Below are positions 241 to 40,620 of a stretch of DNA of 41,046 nucleotides, piece after piece. The first letter of the stretch is position 1. Each line of letters starts with the position of its first letter. A model generated the notes under the pieces. It was not told the DNA's origin, ran no database searches, and saw only the letters and a program-made list of their open reading frames with translations. The DNA is from Bacillota bacterium. Lineage in GTDB: Bacteria; Bacillota; SHA-98; UBA4971. The position numbers were made by a program, and so were the translations under genes. The stretch spans positions 1 through 41,046 of the forward strand of contig JAAYXB010000078.1 in the NCBI GenBank assembly GCA_012516125.1, written 5' to 3'.

Positions 241-876
241 TTAGCCCTTGGGCATCAGATCTTCCATGTTGAGCTTCGCCTTCTCGGCCTTATAGTAGTC
301 GTACGAAGCCGGGAAGTTCAGCGCGCCGCCGACGAAGCTTTGCGGCCACTGCGACCTGAAGGTGTTGTAGTTCCTGATGGCCACCTGCCAGTCGTCGAGC
401 GCGGTGCGGATCTCGTTCACCGCCTCCTCCAGGCCTCGCATGGTCTGCTGCACTATGGGCGGCGAGAAGAGTTGCGGGTATGCTTCGCGCAGGGCGTTCA
501 CGTTGACCGAGAACGCGAGACCCTCCGCGGCCTCGCGGAAGCGTGTCGCGGCCTCGATGGTCTTCTGCGGGTCCCCCTCAACCGTTGCTGCCGCGAACTC
601 CTGTCCGGCGCGGTCCAGCGCCTCGGCGCGGGCCCTTATGACGTCAGTTAGAGTGTCTTTCTCGTGCTCCAGGAAGTCCTTCTCTATCGCCCAGATCCCC
701 TTGATCTTCTCGCTCAGGGTCTCGAGTGCCGCGCCGTACCTCCCCTCCTGCGCGAGCACGCTCTGCTGGAGCCTGACCATGTCGCGCTGAATTCCCATGA
801 CCCAAGAGAACCCCGCAAGCACCACCAGGCCCACGATAATCAGGCCCACGATTCCATAGAGGCATCCCTTTCTCAA
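241..876 (-). CDS. LemA family membrane protein
   Basis: A 211-residue protein with one N-terminal membrane segment (about residues 8-28) followed by a long helical, charged domain. The C-terminal pattern (RNYNTF..., then NFPASYDYYKAE) matches the end of LemA proteins, where an YN motif and a P-rich F/Y-AE tail are typical. LemA proteins are membrane-anchored with a mainly helical soluble domain; their biochemical role is not settled, but they often sit beside TPM-domain proteins, as here. The start is TTG at 876 behind GGGGAGGGAGAGCA and overlaps the stop of the upstream gene (TTGA), so translation is probably coupled. Last gene of a three-gene operon. The family call is firm; the function is open. 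Confidence 0.85.
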   Translation of the reverse strand: MRKGCLYGIVGLIIVGLVVLAGFSWVMGIQRDMVRLQQSVLAQEGRYGAALETLSEKIKGIWAIEKDFLEHEKDTLTDVIRARAEALDRAGQEFAAATVEGDPQKTIEAATRFREAAEGLAFSVNVNALREAYPQLFSPPIVQQTMRGLEEAVNEIRTALDDWQVAIRNYNTFRSQWPQSFVGGALNFPASYDYYKAEKAKLNMEDLMPKG

Positions 877-2687
877 TGCTCTCCCTCCCCATAGATCTTG
901 CGAAGGATGTCATCGATGTTCCTTGCAATGGACACCACGGCCCCGTCGAGGTCGCCTGCGTGCGCGTAAGAGGCCGCTTCCTCGATGAGCGGCCCGAGGT
1001 CGGACGAGGTGAGACGCGGCAAGCCTCGCCCGACACTGTACCAGACCCGCCCCGCCTCGGGGCGGGCGTCGGGGATGACGAGAAAGACCAGGCCGTTGTT
1101 CTTGCGGGGACCATCGCGTTCCCCCAGCATGAGCCAGCGCCCGTAGTGGGTGGACCACTCTTGCGGGTGCTTCACGCCGCGCTGCACCACTATCACGGTC
1201 TCGGCGAAGCCATCGACTCGCAAGGCCTCCAGCGTCTGGTCTGCCGCCTCGACCGCGCGCAGCCCCACGAGACCCTCGGGGTCAACCACCCAGTAGTGGC
1301 CAAGGGCCGGGAATGCCGGGTCGCCGGAAGGCACCTCAACGTTCTCGTCGTACGGCCTCTCGCCGCGCGGCCTGTAGGATGCTGCTCCCGCAGACGGAGC
1401 AGGCGCGCGGCTCCCTCCAGGTTCGGGGCCGGCCGAATCCCCGGCTCCGGGGCGGCATCCTGCCGCGGTTGACAGCAGCGAAACGCAGACCGCGGCTGCT
1501 ACAAGCGCACATAACACCTGGAAGGACCGGCGGACCCGCACCTGTTCCCTTCTGTGCGTGCGTTCCACGTCGGTCGCACCGGGACCAGGAAACGCTGCCA
1601 TGTCTTCGGGGCGCGTCGCAGCCTGCGCCGGGCGGGCGCCGCCGAACTTGCGGGCACAGCCGGCCCCTCCGCCCCCCGCGCACGCGCACGCACAGGCGCA
1701 CGAGACACATGCGCACGCGCACGACACGCAGGCGCATCCGATGGACCTGCCTCCGAACCCACCTCCGCCGCCGGACCTGCGGGATCCGCCAGACGAACCC
1801 GAGCTTCCCGGCCGCGAGGACGGTCTGGATCCCCACGAGGACCTGCCCGCCGGGGGAACGGGGAAGTAGGTGCCATAGTAGATCCCGCGCCTGCCTGTAT
1901 AGCCGCCGCGGGAAGCGGTGACGAGAATGATAATGATGAGGGAGATGATGACGGTCAGGACGACCAGGGCGAATACGGCGGCTGCTGCGGCCGAGGCGCC
2001 ATCCGCTGGCCTTTCGTCCGTCGCCCCGGAACGCGAACCGCCTCCGGCTTCCAGCTCCGGGAAAAGGCGAGGCGAAAACGCGAAGGTGATCCTGAAGCGC
2101 TCGCCCGGCCCCAGGCGAGCTGTCCAGACCACCTGATCCCCAGCCCTCTCGGCAGGCTCCGGCGAGATATACAGCAGATCCCCGGGGTCTCCGGGGTGCC
2201 TCAGGCGCACCTCCAGCCGCTCCGTCTCGGCGCGGTCGTACCAGCCGGGGACGAACGCGAACTCGACCGCATCGTCCTTGCGGTGCCCCATGCCGCTCTG
2301 CTGCACTCGGAAGCTGAAACTGAAGGTCTCACCGGCCGCATAGTCACGGTCGAGGTCCACGCGCACCCCGCTCCAGGAGCCGTAGTCCGCGCGGGAGACC
2401 TGCGCGGCTGCGCCGCCGTGCGAGAGGATCGTGTAGTTGTAGTCCGGAAGGCCCACGGTGACCCAGGGGATGTGGCCGCCGGTCACCTCCCACTCCTGGG
2501 AGTACTCCGCTATCCAGCTTCCGTCCGGCTTGGGGACAATGGTCACGATGTAGTTGAGTATCCGGTATGTGCCGGTATCCCGGGCCGCATGTGCCCAACT
2601 CGCACGGGGGCCTGCAACGCCGGCCGCAACGCCGAGGATGCATACCAGCGCTATCACTACTATCACAGGGACAGGCGTGCGCCTCAT
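873..2687 (-). CDS. Secreted/membrane DUF2207-like protein with Cys-Ala repeat, fused to a TPM domain
   Basis: A 604-residue mosaic. Residues 1-30 form a signal peptide. About 38-210 is a beta-rich presumed extracytoplasmic domain resembling DUF2207-type proteins. About 232-257 is a strong membrane segment, followed by an Arg/Ser/Gly-rich linker and a GGGGGFGG run. Residues 318-344 hold ten cysteines in CAC/CACAC/CACACAC blocks, ending AGGGGAGC. A second hydrophobic segment (about 389-410) ends in a lipobox-like TAAGC (C411). About 455-600 is a TPM (YgcG/Psb32-type) domain. Start ATG 2687 follows GGGAGGGGG and overlaps the radical SAM stop by 4 nt (ATGA). Inferred topology puts the cysteine tract in the cytosol, between two membrane passes. 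It may be two genes fused in frame: an SD-like AGAAGGGA precedes an in-frame GTG at 1541. The domain calls are moderately sure; the role is unknown. Confidence 0.8.
   Translation of the reverse strand: MRRTPVPVIVVIALVCILGVAAGVAGPRASWAHAARDTGTYRILNYIVTIVPKPDGSWIAEYSQEWEVTGGHIPWVTVGLPDYNYTILSHGGAAAQVSRADYGSWSGVRVDLDRDYAAGETFSFSFRVQQSGMGHRKDDAVEFAFVPGWYDRAETERLEVRLRHPGDPGDLLYISPEPAERAGDQVVWTARLGPGERFRITFAFSPRLFPELEAGGGSRSGATDERPADGASAAAAAVFALVVLTVIISLIIIILVTASRGGYTGRRGIYYGTYFPVPPAGRSSWGSRPSSRPGSSGSSGGSRRSGGGGGFGGRSIGCACVSCACACVSCACACACAGGGGAGCARKFGGARPAQAATRPEDMAAFPGPGATDVERTHRREQVRVRRSFQVLCALVAAAVCVSLLSTAAGCRPGAGDSAGPEPGGSRAPAPSAGAASYRPRGERPYDENVEVPSGDPAFPALGHYWVVDPEGLVGLRAVEAADQTLEALRVDGFAETVIVVQRGVKHPQEWSTHYGRWLMLGERDGPRKNNGLVFLVIPDARPEAGRVWYSVGRGLPRLTSSDLGPLIEEAASYAHAGDLDGAVVSIARNIDDILRKIYGEGEH
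1539..1553 (-). promoter_or_regulatory. Possible internal ribosome binding site and GTG start for a separate TPM lipoprotein
   Basis: On the minus strand AGAAGGGA lies 4 nt before GTG (1541-1539), in frame with the 604-residue ORF at codon 383. Translation from here would give about 222 residues, beginning with a short basic stretch, a hydrophobic segment and a lipobox-like site: a complete lipoprotein signal. The large protein could therefore also yield a stand-alone TPM lipoprotein. This is inference from the sequence only. Confidence 0.35.
1656..1736 (-). other. Cys-Ala repeat tract, candidate substrate of the adjacent radical SAM enzyme
   Basis: Codons 318-344 of the TPM/DUF2207-like gene read CACVSCACACVSCACACACA, then GGGGAGC: ten Cys, with Ala or Val-Ser between them and a Gly block before the last. 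Codons alternate synonymously (TGC/TGT, GCC/GCG/GCA), so the pattern is held at protein level and is not a simple DNA slippage product. Dense Cys beside Ala/Ser/Gly is typical of thioether-forming radical SAM substrates and of metal-binding tails. Modification is inferred. Confidence 0.55.
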
Positions 2688-4162
2688 CTTGACCCCCTCC
2701 CGCTGCTGCTTTCGCTCCTGTTTTCGCTGCCGCTTTCAAGGCCAGGTTGCACCGGCGCAGCAGGCTTTCTCCGCGCCTGGTTCAGCCTCTCGAGGGGACA
2801 CGCCCCGCCGCAGACGGCAAAGTGCTCGCACTTCCTGCATTCGGGCGGCGCAAAGCTGTGTGTCCTGACCTTCCGGGCGAGCGGGTGGTTGAATATGCGC
2901 TTCCAGGGCGTCGTGAGGACGTTCCCAAGCCCTTCATCGTGCAGCCATGACTGGCATGGCACGACCACCCCGTCGGGCCTCACGGCCATGTTGGTGTGGC
3001 ACGCCGAGCACGATTTCGCCCCGAGGCCCATGGCCACCGGGTCGAGGTCCTTGTAACAAGTGGGCGTGAACCAGTTGAACTCGAGGCCAAGCTCACCCGC
3101 CAGGGCCGCCGCTCCGGCAATGATGGCCTTGAGGTCCTGGGGCCTCATCGCATCGGGATGCCCCACGCCCCGTCCGGCCGGGATGAGTGCGTTGCAGCCC
3201 ACGTACCTTACCCCGATGCCTGCGAGGAAGCGGAGAAGGTCGGGAAACCCGCGAGCGTTCGCCCTGGTCAGCGTCGTGTTGGTGGAGACGTACATGCCTG
3301 CATCGAGAGCAGCCCTGATACCGCCAACCGTTTCTTCCCACGCGCCCGCCGAGCCCACGATCGCGTCATGCACCGCCGGGTCCGCCGACTCGATGCTTAC
3401 CTGGATGTAGTCCAGGCTTGCTGCTTTCAATTCCCCCACAAGCTCTGCGAGTGCCCTGCCGTTCGTAATGAGTCCTGTCACGAACTTTTCCGCGTGGCGC
3501 ACGAGCTCCACCAGGTCCGGCCGCATCGTGGGCTCGCCCCCGGTGAAGTTCACCATCGGTATCCCGGCGTTCCACAGGCGGTCGAGCACCTGCTTCCACG
3601 ACGCGGTGTCGAGCTCACGCACCCTGGGCATATCCGAGGCGTAGCACCAGGCGCACGCGTTCTGGCAGCCTGAGCCGCCCATGGAGGAGATCATGAGATC
3701 GACGCGGGCAGGCGCCCGCCACTCGGCCTCGGCCATCACGCGTCCTGGGACGCCGCGTTCGCTGGGGCACGCGCCGCGTGAGAGCTCCACGATGAGCCCG
3801 TACAGGTAGTCGATATCTCCCTCTATCTCGGCCACGGGCACGCGCGGATACAGCTGGTGCACCCGGCGCGCAGTTTCGCGCTTGACCCCGAGCCAGGTTT
3901 CCTCCGATACCTCGGTGCCCGGCCGCGTGCGCTCGTGGGCAACCTCTATGAGGGCCTGCACCATGTCGGCGCAGCTCTCGTCCAGGAGCAGGAGCTGGCT
4001 GCCGTTGATCCACAGCAGGTTTCTGGGGCGCCTCGTGAGGGCGGCCAGCACGGGCCCTCCCGCCCGTCTGAGGTGGAGGCGGATCACCCCTGGTCCCTCC
4101 GGGTCTATGGTCACGTGGAACATCCCGGGGTCTCTGAAGAACCGTCGAGGTCTCGATGTCAA
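2684..4162 (-). CDS. Radical SAM/SPASM maturase with PqqD/RRE-like N-terminal region
   Basis: A 492-residue enzyme. C166, C170 and C173 (CQNACAWC) form the CX3CX2C site for the SAM-binding [4Fe-4S] cluster. TGGEP at about 207-211 is the SAM-contact motif. The C-terminal third holds C369, C385, C388, C403, C442, C445, C451 and C455, a SPASM-type set for auxiliary clusters. Residues 15-130 are a domain without Cys-motifs whose pattern (INGSQLLLLDESCADMV...) recalls PqqD-like peptide-recognition elements; this is tentative. SPASM enzymes of this build commonly modify ribosomally made peptides or proteins. It is first in the operon, starts at TTG 4162 behind GGAGG with 7-nt spacing, and overlaps the Cys-Ala repeat gene by ATGA, which points to that protein as its substrate. 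Chemistry not determinable here. Confidence 0.88.
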   Translation of the reverse strand: MTSRPRRFFRDPGMFHVTIDPEGPGVIRLHLRRAGGPVLAALTRRPRNLLWINGSQLLLLDESCADMVQALIEVAHERTRPGTEVSEETWLGVKRETARRVHQLYPRVPVAEIEGDIDYLYGLIVELSRGACPSERGVPGRVMAEAEWRAPARVDLMISSMGGSGCQNACAWCYASDMPRVRELDTASWKQVLDRLWNAGIPMVNFTGGEPTMRPDLVELVRHAEKFVTGLITNGRALAELVGELKAASLDYIQVSIESADPAVHDAIVGSAGAWEETVGGIRAALDAGMYVSTNTTLTRANARGFPDLLRFLAGIGVRYVGCNALIPAGRGVGHPDAMRPQDLKAIIAGAAALAGELGLEFNWFTPTCYKDLDPVAMGLGAKSCSACHTNMAVRPDGVVVPCQSWLHDEGLGNVLTTPWKRIFNHPLARKVRTHSFAPPECRKCEHFAVCGGACPLERLNQARRKPAAPVQPGLESGSENRSESSSGRGSR

Positions 4163-4207: not shown

Positions 4208-4247
4208 TAAGTGAGAGTGCGCGGGGCCATTTCCGCACCTTCACTTA
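4208..4247. repeat. TAAGTG-family element, copy 2 (minimal, 40 bp)
   Basis: TAAGTGAGAGTGCG...CGCACCTTCACTTA is an imperfect terminal inverted repeat with almost no interior, lying between the divergent radical SAM and addB genes. The rest of the 4163-4554 gap is GC-rich with no convincing promoter or RNA motif; an open frame from 4324 is judged to be 5' extension of addB rather than coding. Confidence 0.65.
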
Positions 4248-4554
4248 GGCGCTTGTGTGGGCTTGCGCCGGTGCCGTGCCAAGCGGACAGTCCTGACTCG
4301 CTCGAGGCCGATCGGGGTGGCAGATGCCACGCTCACAGAATCAGAATGACGCAATGAGCGCCGCTCGTCAAGGGCGAGTTAGGAGAGGGAGGTGTGGTCC
4401 CAGGGAGGTGCAGGATTTTCAAGCGCGGCAAGGAAAACATAATACCAGGTGGCAATCTCGGTGGCCTCTTCCAGGCGCCGCCCGGGCAGGCGCCATCCGG
4501 GGCGGACCGGTAAGGAGACCGGGAGCGAAAGAGACCGGAAGCGGGGTGTGGCTT

Positions 4555-7500
4555 GTGAGCCTCAGATTCATCATGGGGCGTGCGGGAACGGGAAAGACCA
4601 CGCTGTGCTTGAATGAGGTCCGCAGCGCCCTTCGCGAGGATCCGTGCGGCCCTCCCATCATCCTTCTGGTCCCAGAGCAGGCCACGTTCCAGGTGGAACA
4701 CGCCCTCGTGAACACCCCCGACCTCCCCGGCTTCATGAGAGCACAGGTGCTGAGCTTCAAGCGGCTTGCCGGCCGCCTGCTCCAGGAGCTCGGCGGCGGG
4801 GCGCGTCGTGACATCGGCGAACTGGGCAAGCTTATGGTCCTGCGTTCGCTCGTGCTGCAGAAGTCCGGCGAGCTCTCTATCTTCGTGAAGGGGTCCGAGA
4901 AATATGGGTTCGCAGAGTGCCTTGCTGAGACTCTCAGGGAACTTACAATGTACCGGGTTGGCCCCGAGGACCTTGAAGCCAGGGTCGCCGACCTTGAGCG
5001 AGCAGGCTTCGGCACGACGGCCCTTGCCCTCAAGCTGCGTGACCTTGCGCTGATTGCGCGGGCTTACAGGGGGTACCTTGGCGACAGATTTCAGGACCCC
5101 GACGACCACCTCTCGCTTGCCGCCACGAAGATCGCCCGCTCTACGTTGACGAAAGGCGCCTTGATCTGGGTGGACGGGTTCCGCGGCTTCACGCCTCAGG
5201 AGTACTCCGTCCTCGAGGCGCTCTTCTCCGCGGCAAGCCGCGTGAGCGTCGCGCTATGCCTCGACCCGAACGCCCTTGGCCGCCCTCTCCAGGACACGGA
5301 GCTCTTCCGTCCAACGAGGGAGACATACGATAACCTGACCGCCCTCGCACGCAAACTGGGCATGGAAATCGAGCCTCCGGTGATCCTTCCGGCCGCCGGC
5401 CCCTGGGCGCTCGGCGGTGCCACCGGAACCCGGACCGGGGTCGGAACCAGGACTAGCACTGGGACTAGCAGTACCACTAGCACTTGGACTGGGACTGGGA
5501 CTGGGGCTGGGATCGGCACACGCTCGGCGCCCCTGAGCCATTTGGAACGCGAGTTTGGGTCCAGGAGACCGTCGCCCTTCGGCGAGGAACCCCATGGAGT
5601 GCGCCTCGTGGCCGCAGCGAACCCGCGCGCAGAGGTAGAAGCCGCGGCGCGGGAGATCCTGAGGCTCGCCCGCGAGGAGGGCATGAGGTTCCGGGACATC
5701 GGCGTGATAGTGGCCGATCTCGAGACCTACCACGACCTTATCCAGCCGATCTTCAAAGACCACGGCATACCGTTCTTCATCGACCGCCGACGTTCGGTGG
5801 GCCATCACCCCCTTATCGAACTCGTGAGATCGGCCCTCGACGTCGTGTGCGAGGACTGGGCTTATGATCCGGTGTTCCGCTACCTCAAGACGGACCTCGT
5901 TCCGGTCTCCCGCCGCGAGGTGGACCTCCTTGAGAACTTCGTGCTCGCCCGCGGCATCCGGGGCAGGCGATGGCTCGACAGCGACCCGTGGAAGTACCGG
6001 CGCGCCTTCGGCCTTGAGGATGTCGCGGAGGACGCCGCTCTCCGCCCCGAGGATGAGGAGATGACGCGCGCCATCGCCGAGGCGCGCTCGAAGGCCACCT
6101 CCGCGCTGGGCGCGTTCTATCGCAAGGTTGTGGGAGATGCTGGGGGGGGCGCTGTGGAGGGCAGAGTGAAGGGCACAGTGCGGGGCACGAAGCCCGTGCG
6201 CGACATGGCAAGGGCCCTCTTTGAGCTTCTCGCCGACCTCCATGTGCGCAAGCGCGTGGAGGAGTGGGCGCAGGAGGCGATGGGATCGGGCGACATCGAG
6301 GCCGCCCGCGAGCACCAGCAGGTATGGAACGCCGTGATCGGCCTGCTCGACGAGGTGGTCGAGGCCCTCGGCAACGAGACGACCGACGCCTCGGGCTTCC
6401 GGGAGGTCATCGAGGCAGGGCTTCAGGGAATGACGCTCGGCCTCATTCCGCCTGCGCTCGACCAGGTCATCGTCGGGTCCGTGGAGAGGTCCAGGCACCC
6501 GGGCCTCAGGGCGGCCTTCGTGCTTGGGGCCACGTACGATGCCTTCCCCCGGCGGGTGCTCGAGGAAACCATCTTCTCCGACTACGAGCGAGAGATGCTC
6601 GAGGAAAGGGGGCTCGTGCTCGCGCCGACCAGCCGCGTCGCGCAGTTTCACGAGCAATACAACGTGTATGTCGCCCTCACGAGGGCTCGGGAGTACCTGT
6701 GGGTGAGCTACCCGATGGCGGACGGCGAGGGGCGCGCTCTCCGCCCCTCGCCGGTCAGAGCGCAGCTCAAGGCGGTGTTTCCGAAACTCGTCGAGGAATT
6801 CGCGGGTGACGAGGCCTCATTCTCGCCGGAGGAAGCTCTCGATGCCATCACGTCCGAGGCGAGGGCAGCGGCCATGCTCGTCCGCCACTTCCGTGCCAGC
6901 GCCACCAGCCCCAGCTCGGGGGGTGCCGAAGGGCAGGACATTTTCTGGCTGAACCTCTACGAGTGGCTCGTGGAGGACCCCGAACGCCGGCTGCGGGCGT
7001 CGCGCGTGCTGAAAAGCCTCGCGTTCACGAGCCAGGTTGAGAGGCTACAGGAGGCCACGGTGCGCGCCCTCTACCCGAATCCAATCAGGACGAGCGTCTC
7101 GCGGCTCGAGAACTTTGCACGTTGCCCGTTCGCCCACTTCGCCGGGAACACCCTGGGCCTTGCCGAGCGCGAGCTCTTCCGGCTCGAGCCGCCCGGCATG
7201 GGGACTTTCATCCACGAGGCCCTTCGCAAGCTCATCGACGACCTGGGGGACGAGCGCACGCTCGCGAGCATGACGGATGACGACATAGCTGCCAGTGTGA
7301 CGAGGATCGTGGACGAGCTTGCCCCTCGTCTCCAGAACGAGATACTGCGGTCGTCGGCGAGATATCGCTATATTGAGCGGGTGCTCACTCGAATTCTGAA
7401 GCGTTCCGCCACGGTGCTGAAGGAACATGCTAACCGCAGCGAGTTCAGGTCCGTCCGCCGCGAGGTGGCCTTCGGTAGAGGCTACGGTGGGGGCGACAGC

Positions 7501-8235
7501 CTTCCCGGTCTTGAGCTGGAGATCGATGGTGGGCGGCATCTCTCGCTTGTGGGGCGGATCGACAGGGTGGACATGGCTAAGGCCGGGGACATCTCGTACC
7601 TGCGTGTGATCGATTACAAGAGCAGCCGACGCTCGCTGAATCTGTCCGATGTCTATTACGGCCTCGCCCTTCAGCTCCTTGTCTACCTCGCCGTTGCCGA
7701 GGTGCACTCAGACAAGCTGGCTGGGGCGTCCGCCAAGCCGGCCGGTGCTCTTTACTTTCCTGCCACAGACCCTGTTGTCAGCTTACCAGGTCCCGTAGAC
7801 GATAAAGCCCTGGAGAACAGGAGAAAACGTCTGCTCAAGATGACTGGGATCATCGTCGGCGACGCAGGCGTGGTAAAGCTCATGGATACGAAAGTCCAGG
7901 GTGCGTCCGACATCGTGCCGGCCCGCCTTACGAAGGACGGAGAAGTCGCAAAAAGCTCTGGAAACAGCGTGATCGACCACGGTAGGTATAGCGTCCTCCG
8001 CAAGTTCCTGCTGGGCAAGATCAGGGAACTCTCGTCGAGGATCGTCGCGGGCGAGGTCGCGCCGAGGCCGTACAGGCGTGGCAAATTCAGGGCCTGCCAG
8101 TGGTGCAGCTTCAAGCCTGTTTGCGGTTTTGACATCCTGTTGCCCGGCAACGAGTACCGGACCATCACGAACTTGAAGAACGATGAGTTCTGGGCGGCGG
8201 TTGAAAAGGACCTTTCGGGGGGGAGCGTGTCATGA
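4555..8235 (+). CDS. addB: ATP-dependent helicase/deoxyribonuclease subunit B
   Basis: With AddA this forms the AddAB helicase-nuclease that resects double-strand breaks to load RecA. A Walker A motif (GRAGTGKT, residues 7-14) sits at the N-terminus. The C-terminal nuclease domain shows GRIDRVD and VIDYKSS, the RecB-type metal-binding motif. C857 plus C1181, C1184 and C1190 (CX2CX5C) are the four ligands of the structural [4Fe-4S] cluster typical of AddB. The frame is open from ATG 4324, but family proteins begin at the SLRFIMGRAG segment, so GTG 4555 is preferred (upstream GGAAGCGGGG, weak). About 1226 residues, slightly long because of a Gly/Thr-rich insert at about 290-324. It overlaps addA by ATGA. 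Confidence 0.93.
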   Translation: MSLRFIMGRAGTGKTTLCLNEVRSALREDPCGPPIILLVPEQATFQVEHALVNTPDLPGFMRAQVLSFKRLAGRLLQELGGGARRDIGELGKLMVLRSLVLQKSGELSIFVKGSEKYGFAECLAETLRELTMYRVGPEDLEARVADLERAGFGTTALALKLRDLALIARAYRGYLGDRFQDPDDHLSLAATKIARSTLTKGALIWVDGFRGFTPQEYSVLEALFSAASRVSVALCLDPNALGRPLQDTELFRPTRETYDNLTALARKLGMEIEPPVILPAAGPWALGGATGTRTGVGTRTSTGTSSTTSTWTGTGTGAGIGTRSAPLSHLEREFGSRRPSPFGEEPHGVRLVAAANPRAEVEAAAREILRLAREEGMRFRDIGVIVADLETYHDLIQPIFKDHGIPFFIDRRRSVGHHPLIELVRSALDVVCEDWAYDPVFRYLKTDLVPVSRREVDLLENFVLARGIRGRRWLDSDPWKYRRAFGLEDVAEDAALRPEDEEMTRAIAEARSKATSALGAFYRKVVGDAGGGAVEGRVKGTVRGTKPVRDMARALFELLADLHVRKRVEEWAQEAMGSGDIEAAREHQQVWNAVIGLLDEVVEALGNETTDASGFREVIEAGLQGMTLGLIPPALDQVIVGSVERSRHPGLRAAFVLGATYDAFPRRVLEETIFSDYEREMLEERGLVLAPTSRVAQFHEQYNVYVALTRAREYLWVSYPMADGEGRALRPSPVRAQLKAVFPKLVEEFAGDEASFSPEEALDAITSEARAAAMLVRHFRASATSPSSGGAEGQDIFWLNLYEWLVEDPERRLRASRVLKSLAFTSQVERLQEATVRALYPNPIRTSVSRLENFARCPFAHFAGNTLGLAERELFRLEPPGMGTFIHEALRKLIDDLGDERTLASMTDDDIAASVTRIVDELAPRLQNEILRSSARYRYIERVLTRILKRSATVLKEHANRSEFRSVRREVAFGRGYGGGDSLPGLELEIDGGRHLSLVGRIDRVDMAKAGDISYLRVIDYKSSRRSLNLSDVYYGLALQLLVYLAVAEVHSDKLAGASAKPAGALYFPATDPVVSLPGPVDDKALENRRKRLLKMTGIIVGDAGVVKLMDTKVQGASDIVPARLTKDGEVAKSSGNSVIDHGRYSVLRKFLLGKIRELSSRIVAGEVAPRPYRRGKFRACQWCSFKPVCGFDILLPGNEYRTITNLKNDEFWAAVEKDLSGGSVS
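5424..5520 (+). repeat. GGACTG/ACTAGC-type hexamer microrepeat inside addB
   Basis: A degenerate run of GGAACC, GGACTAGCA, GGACTG and GGGACTGGG units translates to a Gly/Thr/Ser run with no charged core, placed between conserved helicase segments. Its composition differs from flanking codons and looks like replication-slippage expansion tolerated in a surface loop. Confidence 0.7.
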
Positions 8236-11200
8236 CCACGGTGACCGGGGGAAAGTCCACCCCGAAAGGGGCCGTGTGGACTCCGGAGCAGCTGGAAGCC
8301 ATAAGCGCGAGAGGATGCAATCTCCTGGTGTCCGCGGCCGCAGGCGCCGGCAAGACCTCGGTCCTAGTGGAGCGGGTGGTCGGTCGCATCACCGATCCCG
8401 CGCACCCCGTGGACATCGACAGGCTCCTTGTGGTCACGTTCACCGACGCTGCGGCAGCAGAGATGCGGGAACGAATAGCCGCGGCCCTGGACGATCTGCT
8501 CACGAAAGGCTCCGGGAGCGACGACACGAGGCTCGCCCGGCAGCTTGCCCTCGTCAAGAAGGCAGACATATCCACGGTCCACTCGTTTTGCCACAAGATC
8601 GTGCGCCAGCACTTCTACCGGCTGGACATCGATCCTGCTTTTCGCGTCATGGACGAGGTGGAGGCCGCCCTCCTGCGCCTCGAGGTTGCGGACGACCTCT
8701 TCGAGGCGTGTTACGCCGACTCGGAGGGCGGGAGGTTCGTCGACCTCGTGGATGCGTACGGGGGAGAGCGAGGGGACGAAGCGCTGCGAGACCTCGTGAT
8801 CCGCATGTACGACCATTCCCGCGGCCGGCCCAGGCCTGATGCGTGGTTCGAAGAGATCGCGCGAGCTTTTGACATTGAGCCTGGAACGTCCATAAACGAC
8901 CTGCCGTGGACCAGGACGGTTCTCGAGGCCATTGCCCGGGACCTTGCGAGGGCCCATCGTCTTCTGAGCCAGGCCCTGGAGCTTGCGGGCACACCGGAGG
9001 GGCCGGGGGCGTACGTTGCCACGCTGCAGGAGGACATCTGCGCGTGCTCGCGCATGCTGGAGGCAGCGAGACGGGGCGACTTTACCGAACTCAGTGGGCT
9101 TATGGCCGGATTTGCCTTTGGGAAACTTCAAGCTGTAAGGACTGGGACCTGCAACGACGTGGTCAAGAAAAGAGTAATGGGCCTTCGCGAGGATGCGAAG
9201 AAGCTGGTTTCCGGCATAAAGAACACGTGCTTCTCGCGCCCGCCGGAGGACCTTGTCGCGGACCTCCGCGGGGTCGCTCCACTCATGCAGGAGCTGGTAA
9301 GGATCGTTAAGGCGTTCGCGCATCGCTACGCCGAGGCGAAGCGCGCGCGGGGCCTCGTCGACTTTTCGGATCTCGAGCACCTGTGCCTCCAGGCACTTGG
9401 AACCTGGAACGACCAAAGCGGCCGGTTTGAGCGTTCGGACATCGCACGCGAGCTTGCGGAGCGATACGAAGAGGTGCTCGTGGACGAGTATCAGGACATC
9501 AATCCGGTGCAGGATGCCATTCTCACCCTTGCATCGCGCGGCGACAACACCTTCGTGGTCGGCGATGTGAAGCAGAGCATCTACGGGTTCCGCCTGGCTG
9601 AGCCTCGCCTCTTCACAGAGAGGTATCACGCTTATTCGACCGCGCCCTCGAGCACCTCGCGCAAGATCGACCTCTCAAAGAACTTCCGCAGTCGGAGGGC
9701 GATCATAGACGCGGTGAACTTCGTTTTCCGCCAGGTGTTCTCGGAAGCGGTCGCCGGGATAGCGTATGACCGGCCCGCGGAGCTCGTGTACGGCGCTGAC
9801 TACCCTGACGACCCCGGTACGGCCGACTCCCCTGTCGAGGTGCACATCATCGAGAGAAACGCCGGCATTACGCACGGGAGCAGCGGGGACGAATCCCCGG
9901 GCGGGCCGGGGAACTCTGGCGAGAGCCATTCACACAAGTCTCGCACCGATTGTAGCGATGGCGAGAACGAAGGTGGGGGTTCGACGGGAGAGGCGGGAAC
10001 GGACACAGGAGAAACAGAAGGACTGGAAACGGGAGAAGAGGGGCAGGGAGAGGAAGGCGAGCCCACGCCAGAGGAGGCGGAAGCCCTTGAGCTCGAGGGG
10101 CGCCTCATAGCAAGCCGAATCATGAGAATGGTGAAGGGCACCCTGGAGAGGCCGGGGCCGGAGTTTCAGGTGTGGGATCGGAGGTCGAAGGCGTACCGCC
10201 CGGTGTCCTACCGGGACATCGTCGTGCTCATGAGATCGACGCGGCATCGTGCGAACGTGCTCCTCGAGGTGTTCAGGCAGGCCGACGTGCCGGCGTACGC
10301 CGAGCTTGGCACGGGCTACTTCGAGGCGACCGAGGTCGAGGTCATGCTCTCGTTGCTCCAGGTCATCGATAACCCGATGCAGGACATCCCCCTGGCCGCT
10401 GTGCTGAGGTCACCGATATGCGGATTTACCGCGGACGACCTCGCGCGCGTCCGCATGTGCAGACCTGACGGGGATTTCTACGCGGCTCTCGAGGCCGCCA
10501 GCTCGGCTGCCAGTGCCAGCTCAGCCGATGGCGGCGGCCCGGCTGCTTGCCCAGATGATCTTCCCATGAGGGTCCAGAGGTTCCTCAGGGACCTTGACCG
10601 CTGGCGGACCCTTGCCAGGAGGGTCCCGCTATCAACTCTCATCTGGCATCTCTACCGCGAAACTCGCTACCTCGACTACGTCGGCGGCATGCCCGGCGGG
10701 GCTCAGCGCCAGGCGAACCTTCGGGCGCTCCACGAGCGTGCTCGGCAGTTCGACAGGTTCGCGCGGCAGGGCCTGTTCAGGTTCTTGCGGTTCATAGACC
10801 GGCTGCGGGATGCCGAAGGCGATCTCGGCACCGCGCGGGCGCTTGGCGAGGCCGAAGACGTTGTCAGGATCATGAGCATTCATAAGAGCAAGGGGCTCGA
10901 ATTCCCTGTGGTTTTCGTTGCCGACCTCGGGAAGAATTTCAACCTCGGGGACCTCACCGGTGACGTGCTCTTCCACTCTCGTGCCGGGCTAGGACCCGTT
11001 TTCTGCGATACAAACCGCAGGGTGAAATACCCGACCCTCGCCCACCGCGCCACGAGGGAGAGAGCAAGGGAGGATGCGCTCGCCGAGGAGATGCGCATCC
11101 TGTATGTGGCGATGACCCGCGCAAAGGAGCGCCTCGTCCTGGTGGGCTCTGCGCCGGACCTTGGAAAGCAGGCCGCTCGCTGGTGTGAGGGCATCTCCCG

Positions 11201-12344
11201 GCTCGGTTGGGAGCTGTCAGATGACGTCCTGCTTTCGGCCCGAGGCTTTCTCGATTGGGTGGCGAGCGCCTTGGCGCGGCACCGAGGCGGCTCGGATATC
11301 CGTGCCCTTGCGGGGGTGCGTGGCGAGCCACTGGACGCGGCGGTGCGCGATGATCCGGCCCGGTTCGAGGTCAGGATATGGAACCCGTGTGACGTGCCTG
11401 AAGCGGTCCAGCCACGGAGTGGTCGGCGCGCCGCGGCGGGCCTCGTCGTCCTGGACGAGATAGCCTCGGCGAGATCGCTCGGTCGCACGGTAGCGCCTGA
11501 TTTCAGACGCGCGATCGAGGAGCACCTCGGATGGAGCTATCCACATGCGGCGCTGGCTGGGCGCGCGGCCAAGGCGACCTGGTCTGAGATAAAGCGAAGG
11601 TTCGAGCCCGGTCGCGACGACGCCGAGTCCAGCAGGGAGGACGCAAGCGAAGTGCGTCCGGTGCCTGCGACTTTTTCGGAGCGACCCCGGTTCATGCAAG
11701 AGTTCGAGATCACGCCGGCCGAGCGTGGACAGGCGACGCACCTCGTGCTCCAGCACCTCGACCTCGGCGGCAGGCTCGATGCACCAGGCATTTGGGCCCG
11801 CGTGGACGAGATGGTGGCCTGTGATCTCCTCACCGCGGACCTTGCAGCTACCATCGACGTCGCGGCCATTGCGCGGTTCTTCGCGAGCCCGCTCGGCAAG
11901 CGCGTGGTGAACGCGAGAGATCGCGTCCGTCGCGAGGTCCCTTTCTACCTCGGCATCGATGCGAAGGCGCTCTACCCCGAGATCCCTGCGCATATGGGCG
12001 GCCACGAACGTGTGGTGGTGCAGGGTATCATCGACTGCCTCATCGATGAGGGAGACGGGTTCATCCTCATCGATTTCAAGACCGGTTCGCTGGCGCAGCA
12101 TGACCCAGATGCGGCGGCCCGGGCGTACTCAGGGCAGATCGCTGTGTACACCGCCGCCGTCGAGGCCGTCCACGGGCGCCCTGTCAAAGAGGCGTACCTC
12201 TATTTCCTCGGGGCCGGGATCGCCGTCCCAGTAGACTTGCGCCACGCCGCTCGCCGGCTTCTAGGGAACGACGACGGGGCGCCTTCTGATGACGTTGCCG
12301 AACCGGTCGATGACCGTTTCCACCTTGACGGTGAAATCTCCTAG
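8232..12344 (+). CDS. addA: ATP-dependent helicase/nuclease subunit A
   Basis: A UvrD/RecB-type superfamily 1 helicase with C-terminal nuclease, partner of AddB. Seen: Walker A (AAAGAGKTS, about 35-43), VDEYQD (about 417-422), GDVKQSIYGFR, the KGLEFPVVFV motif, YVAMTRAKERL, and a nuclease motif (GIIDCL...LIDFKTG) near residues 1265-1285. The 1370 residues exceed the usual 1200-1250, largely through a Glu/Gly/Ser/Thr-rich insert at about 546-620 that follows the VEVHIIER segment. Start ATG 8232 overlaps the addB stop. Its last 84 bp overlap the convergent gene on the other strand, so the two transcripts are antisense at their 3' ends. Confidence 0.95.
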   Translation: MTTVTGGKSTPKGAVWTPEQLEAISARGCNLLVSAAAGAGKTSVLVERVVGRITDPAHPVDIDRLLVVTFTDAAAAEMRERIAAALDDLLTKGSGSDDTRLARQLALVKKADISTVHSFCHKIVRQHFYRLDIDPAFRVMDEVEAALLRLEVADDLFEACYADSEGGRFVDLVDAYGGERGDEALRDLVIRMYDHSRGRPRPDAWFEEIARAFDIEPGTSINDLPWTRTVLEAIARDLARAHRLLSQALELAGTPEGPGAYVATLQEDICACSRMLEAARRGDFTELSGLMAGFAFGKLQAVRTGTCNDVVKKRVMGLREDAKKLVSGIKNTCFSRPPEDLVADLRGVAPLMQELVRIVKAFAHRYAEAKRARGLVDFSDLEHLCLQALGTWNDQSGRFERSDIARELAERYEEVLVDEYQDINPVQDAILTLASRGDNTFVVGDVKQSIYGFRLAEPRLFTERYHAYSTAPSSTSRKIDLSKNFRSRRAIIDAVNFVFRQVFSEAVAGIAYDRPAELVYGADYPDDPGTADSPVEVHIIERNAGITHGSSGDESPGGPGNSGESHSHKSRTDCSDGENEGGGSTGEAGTDTGETEGLETGEEGQGEEGEPTPEEAEALELEGRLIASRIMRMVKGTLERPGPEFQVWDRRSKAYRPVSYRDIVVLMRSTRHRANVLLEVFRQADVPAYAELGTGYFEATEVEVMLSLLQVIDNPMQDIPLAAVLRSPICGFTADDLARVRMCRPDGDFYAALEAASSAASASSADGGGPAACPDDLPMRVQRFLRDLDRWRTLARRVPLSTLIWHLYRETRYLDYVGGMPGGAQRQANLRALHERARQFDRFARQGLFRFLRFIDRLRDAEGDLGTARALGEAEDVVRIMSIHKSKGLEFPVVFVADLGKNFNLGDLTGDVLFHSRAGLGPVFCDTNRRVKYPTLAHRATRERAREDALAEEMRILYVAMTRAKERLVLVGSAPDLGKQAARWCEGISRLGWELSDDVLLSARGFLDWVASALARHRGGSDIRALAGVRGEPLDAAVRDDPARFEVRIWNPCDVPEAVQPRSGRRAAAGLVVLDEIASARSLGRTVAPDFRRAIEEHLGWSYPHAALAGRAAKATWSEIKRRFEPGRDDAESSREDASEVRPVPATFSERPRFMQEFEITPAERGQATHLVLQHLDLGGRLDAPGIWARVDEMVACDLLTADLAATIDVAAIARFFASPLGKRVVNARDRVRREVPFYLGIDAKALYPEIPAHMGGHERVVVQGIIDCLIDEGDGFILIDFKTGSLAQHDPDAAARAYSGQIAVYTAAVEAVHGRPVKEAYLYFLGAGIAVPVDLRHAARRLLGNDDGAPSDDVAEPVDDRFHLDGEIS

Positions 12345-38332: not shown

Positions 38333-38815
38333 TTGGAGAAGGTCCTGCTAGTGGAGCACGAGAAGTGCACAGCGTGTCGTATCTGTGAGCTTGTGTGTTC
38401 GGCTAGACATGCAGGGTCGTTCAACCCCGCGAAAGCGCGGATCACCGTGGCGACGTTTCTCGAGGACAACTTCTTCTTTCCGCTGACATGCCAGCATTGC
38501 GAGGAACCTCTCTGTGAGGACGTTTGCCCCACCGGTGCCATATCGCGGCACCCGGAAACGGCAGCAGTGGTGATCGACGATGCGAAGTGCATAGGGTGCA
38601 GAATGTGCCAGGCTGCGTGCCCCTTTGGGGCGATCGCTTACTCCCCGTCGGAGGATAAGATGGTAAAGTGTGATCTATGTGGCGGCGAGCCGGAGTGCGT
38701 GTTGTTCTGCCCGTGGGACGCGATCAAGTATGTGAAGGCTGACGACGCCTCGTTGCGCAAACGCAAAGCCGTGGGCGAGAAGCTGAAGAAGGCCCTGCAG
38801 GAGGTGAAACTGTGA
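38333..38815 (+). CDS. Polyferredoxin with four [4Fe-4S] sites (AOR partner)
   Basis: 160 residues. Sixteen cysteines fall into four groups: [37 protein letters not shown] and [15 protein letters not shown]. This is the HycB/AorA-like electron-transfer fold that accompanies oxidoreductases. TTG 38333 has AAGGAGGG with 8-nt spacing and is preferred to ATG 38309. The stop overlaps or abuts the AOR start, so the two are co-translated and very probably form a complex, moving electrons between the tungsten enzyme and the cell's ferredoxin pool. Confidence 0.9.
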
Positions 38816-40620
38816 TGTACGGGTGGACGGGAAAGATCCTTCGGGTTAACCTCAGCGCGAGGTCCGTATCCGTGGAGGACCTGTGCCCTGAGATCGCCGA
38901 GAACTACCTTGGGGCGAGAGGCCTCGGCACAAAGATCCTCTATGACGAGCTCAAGCCCGGTGTGGACCCGCTCGGCCCGGACAACAAGATCATCTTCGCT
39001 ACAGGCCCTCTCACCGGCACCGCAGCCACCTCCGCCGGGCGCTACAACGTCGTCACGAAGTCGCCGCTCACAGGGTTTATTGCCGCGTCGAACTCCGGCG
39101 GGTATTTCCCTGCGGAGCTGAAGTATGCCGGTTTTGACGCCATCATCGTGGAAGGCGCCGCCGACGAGCCAGTATACATCTGGGTACACAACGGCAAAGC
39201 CGAGCTCCGCTCCGCAAAACATGTTTGGGGCAAGAACACGGCGGAGACAACGGATATCCTTGTCGCGGAGACTGACCCTGACGCCAAAGTCGCGTGCATC
39301 GGGCCCGCCGGCGAGAAACTCGTGCTCTTCGCGTGCGTGGTGAACGACAAAGGCCGAGCCGCCGGGCGCTCGGGGGTTGGCGCGGTCATGGGTTCGAAGA
39401 ACCTGAAGGCCATCGCGGTGAGAGGCACGGGAGATGTGAAGGTGGCCGACCCGGCGAAGTTCAGGGAGGCTGTGCTCGCGGCCTTCAAGAAGATTAAAGA
39501 GTCTCCGGTCACGTCGCAGGGCCTTCCCACGTACGGGACGGCAGTCCTCGTGAACGTTATCAACCAGCATGGGGCGTTCCCGACGCGCAACTTCCAAACG
39601 GGCGTGTTCGAGGGTGCCGAAAAGATATCAGGTGAGACACTGGCCGCCACGCTTCTCGTGAGAAAGCGCGCGTGCTTCGGATGCCCCATAGCATGCGGGC
39701 GGCCCAGCGTCGTGAAGAGCGGGAAATACAAGGGAGAGGGCGAAGGCCCTGAATATGAGACCATCTGGGCGCTTGGGGCAGCATGCGGCGTCGACAACCT
39801 CGAGGCGGTGACCAAGGCCAACTACCTCTGTAACGAGCTCGGCCTTGACCCGATAAGCATGGGCTCGACGATCGCATGTGCCATGGAGCTATACGAAAAA
39901 GGTTATCTCCCGAAGAGCGCGACCGACATCCCACTCAGGTTCGGCGACGCTGATGCCGTGGTTGAGGCCACGCGCAAGACGGGATATCGGGAGGGCGTCG
40001 GTGACCTGCTTGCGAAGGGGTCATATCGTCTTGCGGCAGAGTTCGGCCATCCGGAGCTTTCGATGAGCGCGAAGAAGCAGGAGTATCCGGCGTACGACCC
40101 GCGCGGTGTGAAAGGTATCGGGCTGAACTACGCCACATCGAACAGGGGCGGCTGCCACGTGAGAGGCTACACCATTTCGCCCGAGGTCCTCGGTGTTCCG
40201 GAGAAGATAGATCCACTGTCCAAGGATGGGAAAGCCGCCTGGGTCAAAGCGTTCCAGGACGTGACCGCCCTAGTGGACTCGGTCGGGATGTGCCTCTTTA
40301 CCACGTTCGCGCTGGGCGCGCCGGATGTGGCGAGCATGCTTGAGTCCGCGACAGGTATCCCATTCCCCGCGGAGAAAGCGGTGTTGGCGGGCGAGCGTAT
40401 CTGGAACCTAGAGCGCCTCTTCAACCTGAGAGAAGGGCTCACAAAGGCGGACGATGCTCTGGCTCCAAGGCTGCTCACCGAGCCCATGCCGGAGGGGCCT
40501 GCCGCCGGACAGGTGGTGGAGCTTGCCGACATGCTGGCTGATTACTATGCTGCCAGAGGGTGGAGCGAAAACGGCAAGCCTTCGGCAGAGACGCTAGAGC
40601 GACTCGGGCTTGCCGTTTAA
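38815..40620 (+). CDS. Aldehyde ferredoxin oxidoreductase family protein (tungsten enzyme)
   Basis: About 601 residues. [21 protein letters not shown] and [16 protein letters not shown] form the AOR N-terminal domain; [27 protein letters not shown] and [20 protein letters not shown] bind the bis-tungstopterin. CFGCPIAC (from about residue 287) plus a late Cys in VGMCLFTTF give the four ligands of the [4Fe-4S] cluster. The family oxidises aldehydes to acids or reduces acids; the substrate is not predictable. ATG 38815 is 10 nt after AGGAGG, GTG 38812 is 7 nt after it. The TAA stop is the first codon of the terminal repeat. Anaerobic metabolism is implied. Confidence 0.93.

Follow-up and report, generated by a model that had tools for sequence, protein, structure and literature searches.

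Antibiotic-like peptides and redox cofactors are the best-known products of radical SAM peptide maturases. SPASM enzymes can also act on a protein, as QhpD does, and the TIGR04340 enzymes are paired with Ala-Cys-Gly repeats. An RRE combined with a radical SAM core and a SPASM or Twitch domain is the architecture of sactisynthases (PMC6231123). Here, a gene pair comprising an enzyme with this type of architecture and a membrane protein with a Cys-Ala repeat was identified in the window, i.e., the whole stretch of 41,046 nucleotides that was analysed. The pair is widespread, from gut bacteria to Asgard archaea, and apparently uncatalogued; no account of it was found among the openly licensed papers searched. 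It probably represents a dedicated maturase and its substrate.

The locus and the domains of the enzyme

Three minus-strand genes, each overlapping the next by exactly 4 nt, make up the window operon, and their coordinates agree with the layout given in a preliminary description of this DNA: a radical SAM/SPASM enzyme (2684..4162; 492 aa), a Cys-Ala membrane protein whose frame is fused in frame to a TPM-domain region, as judged from Pfam and from relatives (873..2687; 604 aa), and a LemA family protein as local operon partner (241..876; PF04011, 4.4e-15). The true start of the enzyme is uncertain, since its listed start is TTG, yet the open frame reaches position 4240. Elsewhere in the window, an AddB/AddA-like pair (4297-12344) runs in the direction away from the operon, its first large ORF having a Thr/Gly-rich insertion near 5400-5530 and its second encoding a UvrD helicase with a PD-(D/E)XK nuclease domain. 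An aldehyde ferredoxin oxidoreductase (AFOR_N and AFOR_C) is encoded at 38743-40620; this family is known mostly from anaerobes.

The radical SAM core of the enzyme is evident from a Pfam match (PF04055, 8.8e-25) and from the CX3CX2C motif CQNACAWC (residues 166-173; 3644..3667, minus strand) of the SAM-binding 4Fe-4S cluster, whose three Cys are invariant in a 46-member alignment of the enzyme family. The SPASM domain (PF13186, 2.2e-09) has cysteines 385, 403, 442, 445, 451, and 455 (2798..3010, minus strand) in the pattern CX9-15GX4C...CX2CX5CX3C, which is present in the window enzyme and in 33 of the 46 members; no seventh Cys follows this pattern in the window enzyme. These Pfam matches uphold the initial naming of the gene as a SPASM radical SAM enzyme, which had overlooked an RRE-like (PqqD-type) N-terminal domain at approximately residues 13-128 (3779..4126, minus strand). 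PqqD (PF05402) is matched by 16 of the 46 family members (best 7e-07), the window enzyme itself being below Pfam reporting for it. In the structure model, the region consists of strands followed by three helices, and the family profile aligns first with SkfB, from residue 21 on and through the SkfB RRE region. The presence of an RRE-like domain implies a peptide substrate.

The model of the whole enzyme (mean pLDDT 87.9) has SkfB as its top fold match (6efn, 2.1e-16), followed by BlsE, SuiB, PqqE, and CteB. No named NCBIfam radical SAM equivalog was reached by the window enzyme (the best, NirJ2, gave 107.7 bits against a cut-off of 500), and its relatives likewise exceeded none of these cut-offs. 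One branch of the family, from gut Clostridia (L060, L023, L039, L090), is without the CX2CX5C cysteines of SPASM, suggesting that its auxiliary clusters differ; these enzymes may be Twitch-like, as SkfB is. A role in defence was considered and rejected: the PADLOC pVip profile gives 60 bits over the core region only, below the maturase families, reflecting merely generic similarity to the viperin core rather than membership in the anti-phage viperins.

Co-occurrence and distribution of the enzyme and the tail protein

An exact DNA pattern for CACACAGG was scanned over ~85,000 species genomes and returned at least 118 stretches; at least about 90 genuine tail proteins are among the matches listed. 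When only tails with enough flank were counted, and a homologue of the enzyme that scored at least 70 bits and lay no more than ~4.5 kb away was taken as a partner, an enzyme was found near 63 of 70 tails and near none of 29 chance (non-tail) pattern matches among the matches listed, as expected from the co-occurrence proposed at the outset. Three of the seven misses (L068, L100, L101) fall in a subgroup with the enzyme on the upstream side, where the stretch is truncated. Whole-genome searches of these seven and of three others with short flanks, all lacking an enzyme in their stretch, showed that nine of the ten encode a family enzyme (361-557 bits); the assembly of L114, a small genome, has the tail and no enzyme. 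By both counts, the tract does not occur widely without the enzyme among the matches listed. Conversely, when 149 genomes from the phylum were searched with the enzyme profile, ten matches of 298-565 bits emerged, followed by a gap down to scores of at most 210 bits confined to the core region. All ten of these family-level enzymes adjoin a tailed membrane protein; four of the tails read CACACACACASSGGCT or CACACAGGGGCT, and two are CHSA repeats. In the 17 nearest genomes, both genes are present in 12 and neither in 5.

Tailed proteins occur in many bacterial phyla and in Asgard, Bathy-, Thermo-, and methanogenic archaea, and their tails end in ...CACACAGGGR, ...CACACAGGGRAGC, or ...CACACAGGGGAGC; three main types can be told apart (all among the matches listed). 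Type A, ending in CACACAGGGR or GGGVG/GGGAG, is found in Chloroflexota, Asgard archaea, Bathyarchaeota, Thermoproteota, Thermoplasmatota, and several candidate phyla; type B (CACACAGGGRAGCSxKDFY) in Lachnospiraceae, Oscillospiraceae, and their kin; and type C (CACACAGGxGAGC) in the family of the window, Aminicenantes, Krumholzibacteria, and Chitinivibrionia. The outside domains of type A (archaeal/Chloroflexi) and types B/C are homologous (hhalign 99.9%, E 2.9e-36), and the cytosolic linker differs between them. Tail type tracks the enzyme tree, on which it requires 10 changes versus 29.5 with shuffled labels. Two tail proteins (L142:1663-3132 and L143:4121-5710) carry CHSA rather than CACA repeats (CHSACHDACHSACHS...ACVSGGAR) and are encoded next to a diverged member of the enzyme family, offering a natural test of the specificity of enzyme for repeat. 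Spread by plasmids was rejected, as a plasmid collection contained no match at E 1e-30.

The genes surrounding the pair differ among lineages. In type A operons, the order is often a small zinc-ribbon-like membrane protein, the tail protein, the enzyme, a second radical SAM protein with PqqD, and a methyltransferase, while in types B and C the enzyme gene comes first. The second radical SAM protein, the methyltransferase, and the small membrane protein are the recurrent neighbours outside the window's relatives, along with an ABC-like cluster in 6 loci. In Chloroflexota (L022, L062, L063, L083, L096), the pair is followed by a second radical SAM protein, which in L062 carries PqqD, and by a methyltransferase, which may mean that the tail undergoes stepwise modification. 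The small membrane protein upstream of the tail protein has a zinc-ribbon-like CxxC...CxxC arrangement (L029:3558-4067, L062:785-1153, and eight more loci); the two that were scanned have no Pfam family. The window operon genes include no export or leader-peptidase gene by Pfam.

TPM and LemA accompany the pair only in the relatives of the window and in a few type C loci among the matches listed. They were accordingly rejected as core components, and the coupling of LemA to the enzyme and tract in the preliminary description is here reduced to a local partnership of LemA and TPM in few loci. Their presence in the window could nevertheless suggest that the two genes are neighbours through a shared envelope-stress or membrane-lipid operon, with the enzyme acting on a small molecule and the tail left untouched; other radical SAM families do use small molecules, and BlsE and heme enzymes score well. 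This reading is very improbable, given that the pair alone stays constant across differing gene orders, neighbours, and host lineages, that the enzyme and the tail protein are both absent from a congener (G004) in which TPM and LemA are kept, and that the RRE-like domain argues for a peptide as substrate.

The membrane protein and its Cys-Ala tail

The structure model of the Cys-Ala protein comprises a beta-sandwich and a helix, followed by disorder. According to this model, together with hhalign, an extracytoplasmic beta-sandwich domain (approximately residues 38-210; 2058..2576, minus strand) would follow a signal peptide; hydrophobicity and the model place a transmembrane helix at residues 232-259 (1911..1994, minus strand). 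Two hydrophobic segments had been described initially (approximately 232-257 and 389-410); both are present, the first coinciding with the model helix. Basic residues follow this helix, suggesting that its C-terminal side is cytosolic. A cytosolic location of the tail, as originally proposed, is therefore supported by the predicted topology—signal peptide, outside domain, one transmembrane helix, and basic residues after it—and by the structure model.

The TPM domain occupies residues 467-593 of the middle ORF (Pfam, 3.5e-07). In two genomes (G001, G016) and in the sister genus, TPM has a gene of its own and the membrane protein stops after the tract; most relatives encode the TPM half as a separate lipoprotein. 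Three genomes of the genus (that of the window, G005, and G002) have a frame that continues into TPM. A lipoprotein, VRVRRSFQVLCALVAAAVCVSLLSTAAGC, with the lipobox LSTAAGC would start in the window at a GTG at position 1541, which has AGAAGGGA upstream. The TPM half (873..1541, minus strand; PF04536) is thus likely a separate lipoprotein made from an internal start. Region 873-1541 may also be produced in two forms, one fused and one a separate lipoprotein. Members of the broad family, among the matches listed, carry the repeat at the C-terminal end, followed by no more than ~40 residues. The tract is normally a C-terminal tail, with a predicted cytosolic location, and becomes an internal loop only if the TPM fusion is translated. 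The placement of the tract in an internal loop, as first described, was demoted in view of the separate TPM genes, the C-terminal repeats, and the internal GTG. Were the fusion translated, the second hydrophobic segment would put TPM outside, leaving the tail cytosolic either way.

Ahead of the TPM domain, the middle protein has no Pfam family above cut-off, and in the members scanned the tail protein, the TPM part apart, falls under no Pfam or NCBIfam family. DUF2207 is not reached by the window protein and is approached by one gut tail protein below threshold (17.5 bits versus a cut-off of 24.4, E 0.005). Weak fold likenesses of the ectodomain (TM ~0.3-0.38) to the N-terminal beta domain of M1 aminopeptidases and to oligosaccharyltransferase subunits were not used.

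The conserved tail itself, GCACVSCACACVSCACACACAGGGGAGC (28 residues, 317-344; 1656..1739, minus strand), is the presumed substrate and contains ten Cys, encoded by 7 TGC and 3 TGT, and eight Ala, encoded by 4 GCG, 3 GCC, and 1 GCA. In the structure model, it is disordered, as is everything from residue 261 onward. The repeat is GC-rich in the window and might on that ground be regarded as a low-complexity DNA artefact of a GC-rich genome. In comparison with 11 homologous tails, however, the window tract differs by 155 synonymous and 4 non-synonymous codons, showing that selection acts at the level of the peptide, as the mixed synonymous codons had first been taken to indicate. The same peptide also recurs in unrelated phyla and in archaea, and the Cys and Ala columns of the repeat core are invariant in both tail alignments. 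An artefact has next to no probability on this evidence, and a chance repeat was rejected on the same two grounds, codon usage and recurrence across phyla.

Proposed modification and comparison with known systems

In the mechanism proposed here, the beta-sandwich of the membrane-inserted tail protein would face outward and the Gly/Ser-rich Cys-Ala tail would lie in the cytosol, where a cytosolic radical SAM/SPASM enzyme would probably dock on the tail protein via the RRE-like domain. The enzyme would then modify the repeat, the likeliest products being thioether links between Cys sulfurs and residues nearby, each with a mass change of -2 Da. The membrane protein would thereby gain a polycyclic tail that is rigid and resistant to proteases and to redox change, and TPM and LemA would be putative envelope partners of this protein in the branch of the window. 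What the data show is the pairing itself, the domains present, the conserved tail, the joint absence of both genes, and the match between tail type and enzyme tree; the other parts of this scheme carry different degrees of confidence. It is very probable that the tail is the substrate of the enzyme. A bond between Cys sulfur and a neighbouring residue is plausible by analogy, and on balance thioether cross-links are the product to expect. That the tail would serve as a stable cytosolic scaffold or sensor is a guess, made with low confidence.

The sequence taken by itself would fit thioether formation, C-C links, epimerisation, and oxidation alike. It could be that the enzyme modifies the tail without forming thioethers, through C-C cross-links, epimerisation, dehydrogenation, or modification of Ala or Gly, the Cys being otherwise used: SPASM enzymes with an RRE carry out several reactions, one of the top fold matches (SuiB) makes a C-C link, Ala is no less invariant than Cys, and the second radical SAM protein with PqqD and the methyltransferase of type A operons would allow a richer tail chemistry. 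Such a product appears unlikely, as the closest characterised relative by both sequence and fold, SkfB, is a thioether former and the repeat is built on Cys. Closely spaced Cys can also bind metals, and the zinc-ribbon-like protein upstream in type A operons would suit a tail that holds a metal or Fe-S cluster—as a redox relay, metal buffer, or sensor—with the enzyme loading or maturing that center and making no covalent links. Most tails, however, are without His and acidic ligands, strict Ala spacers are unneeded for metal binding, and the enzyme, with its RRE and SPASM domains, is built like a peptide maturase, making a metal center improbable.

A broader proposal is offered tentatively, at slightly less than even odds: that an ancient class of bacterial and archaeal membrane proteins could have a cytosolic C-terminus poly-cross-linked by a dedicated radical SAM enzyme, forming a permanent part of the envelope (a scaffold, sensor, or gate) and not a secreted peptide. 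If true, maturase chemistry would also build ordinary membrane proteins, in gut Clostridia, Chloroflexota, and Asgard archaea. Direct testing is feasible because the candidate substrate is evident from its sequence, the repeat varies by lineage in step with the enzyme (CACA, CHSA, GGGR, GGCT), and the pair has cultured hosts, including Gemmiger formicilis and Ornatilinea apprima.

Among known families, TPM and LemA are part of the window operon, yet they, like the DUF2207-type membrane proteins, are not defined by a Cys-Ala tail. The ACGX system of TIGR04340 shares a radical SAM/SPASM enzyme with the pair described here; however, this family is absent from the best 25 NCBIfam families for the window enzyme, and an archaeal family member (L042) scores 69.3 against its cut-off of 400. 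The anSME and QhpD type enzymes show that a SPASM enzyme can work on a protein that goes on to serve another function, but anSME matches the fold of the window enzyme more weakly, and neither a sulfatase nor an amine dehydrogenase was found by Pfam among the window operon genes. The sactipeptide and ranthipeptide maturases (SkfB, AlbA, and CteB/SCIFF) have several features in common with the pair: an RRE, a radical SAM core, and a SPASM or Twitch domain, together with a Cys-rich substrate segment encoded by a gene adjoining that of the maturase. The window enzyme scores far under every cut-off of the NCBIfam maturases, and in place of a short leader-core precursor, the Cys-rich segment is the end of a protein that crosses the membrane once and exceeds 300 residues. 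Unlike in those systems, where the substrate is a short secreted peptide, the presumed substrate here is the tail of a protein anchored in the membrane and folded on the outside, and the pair spans many phyla, including archaea.
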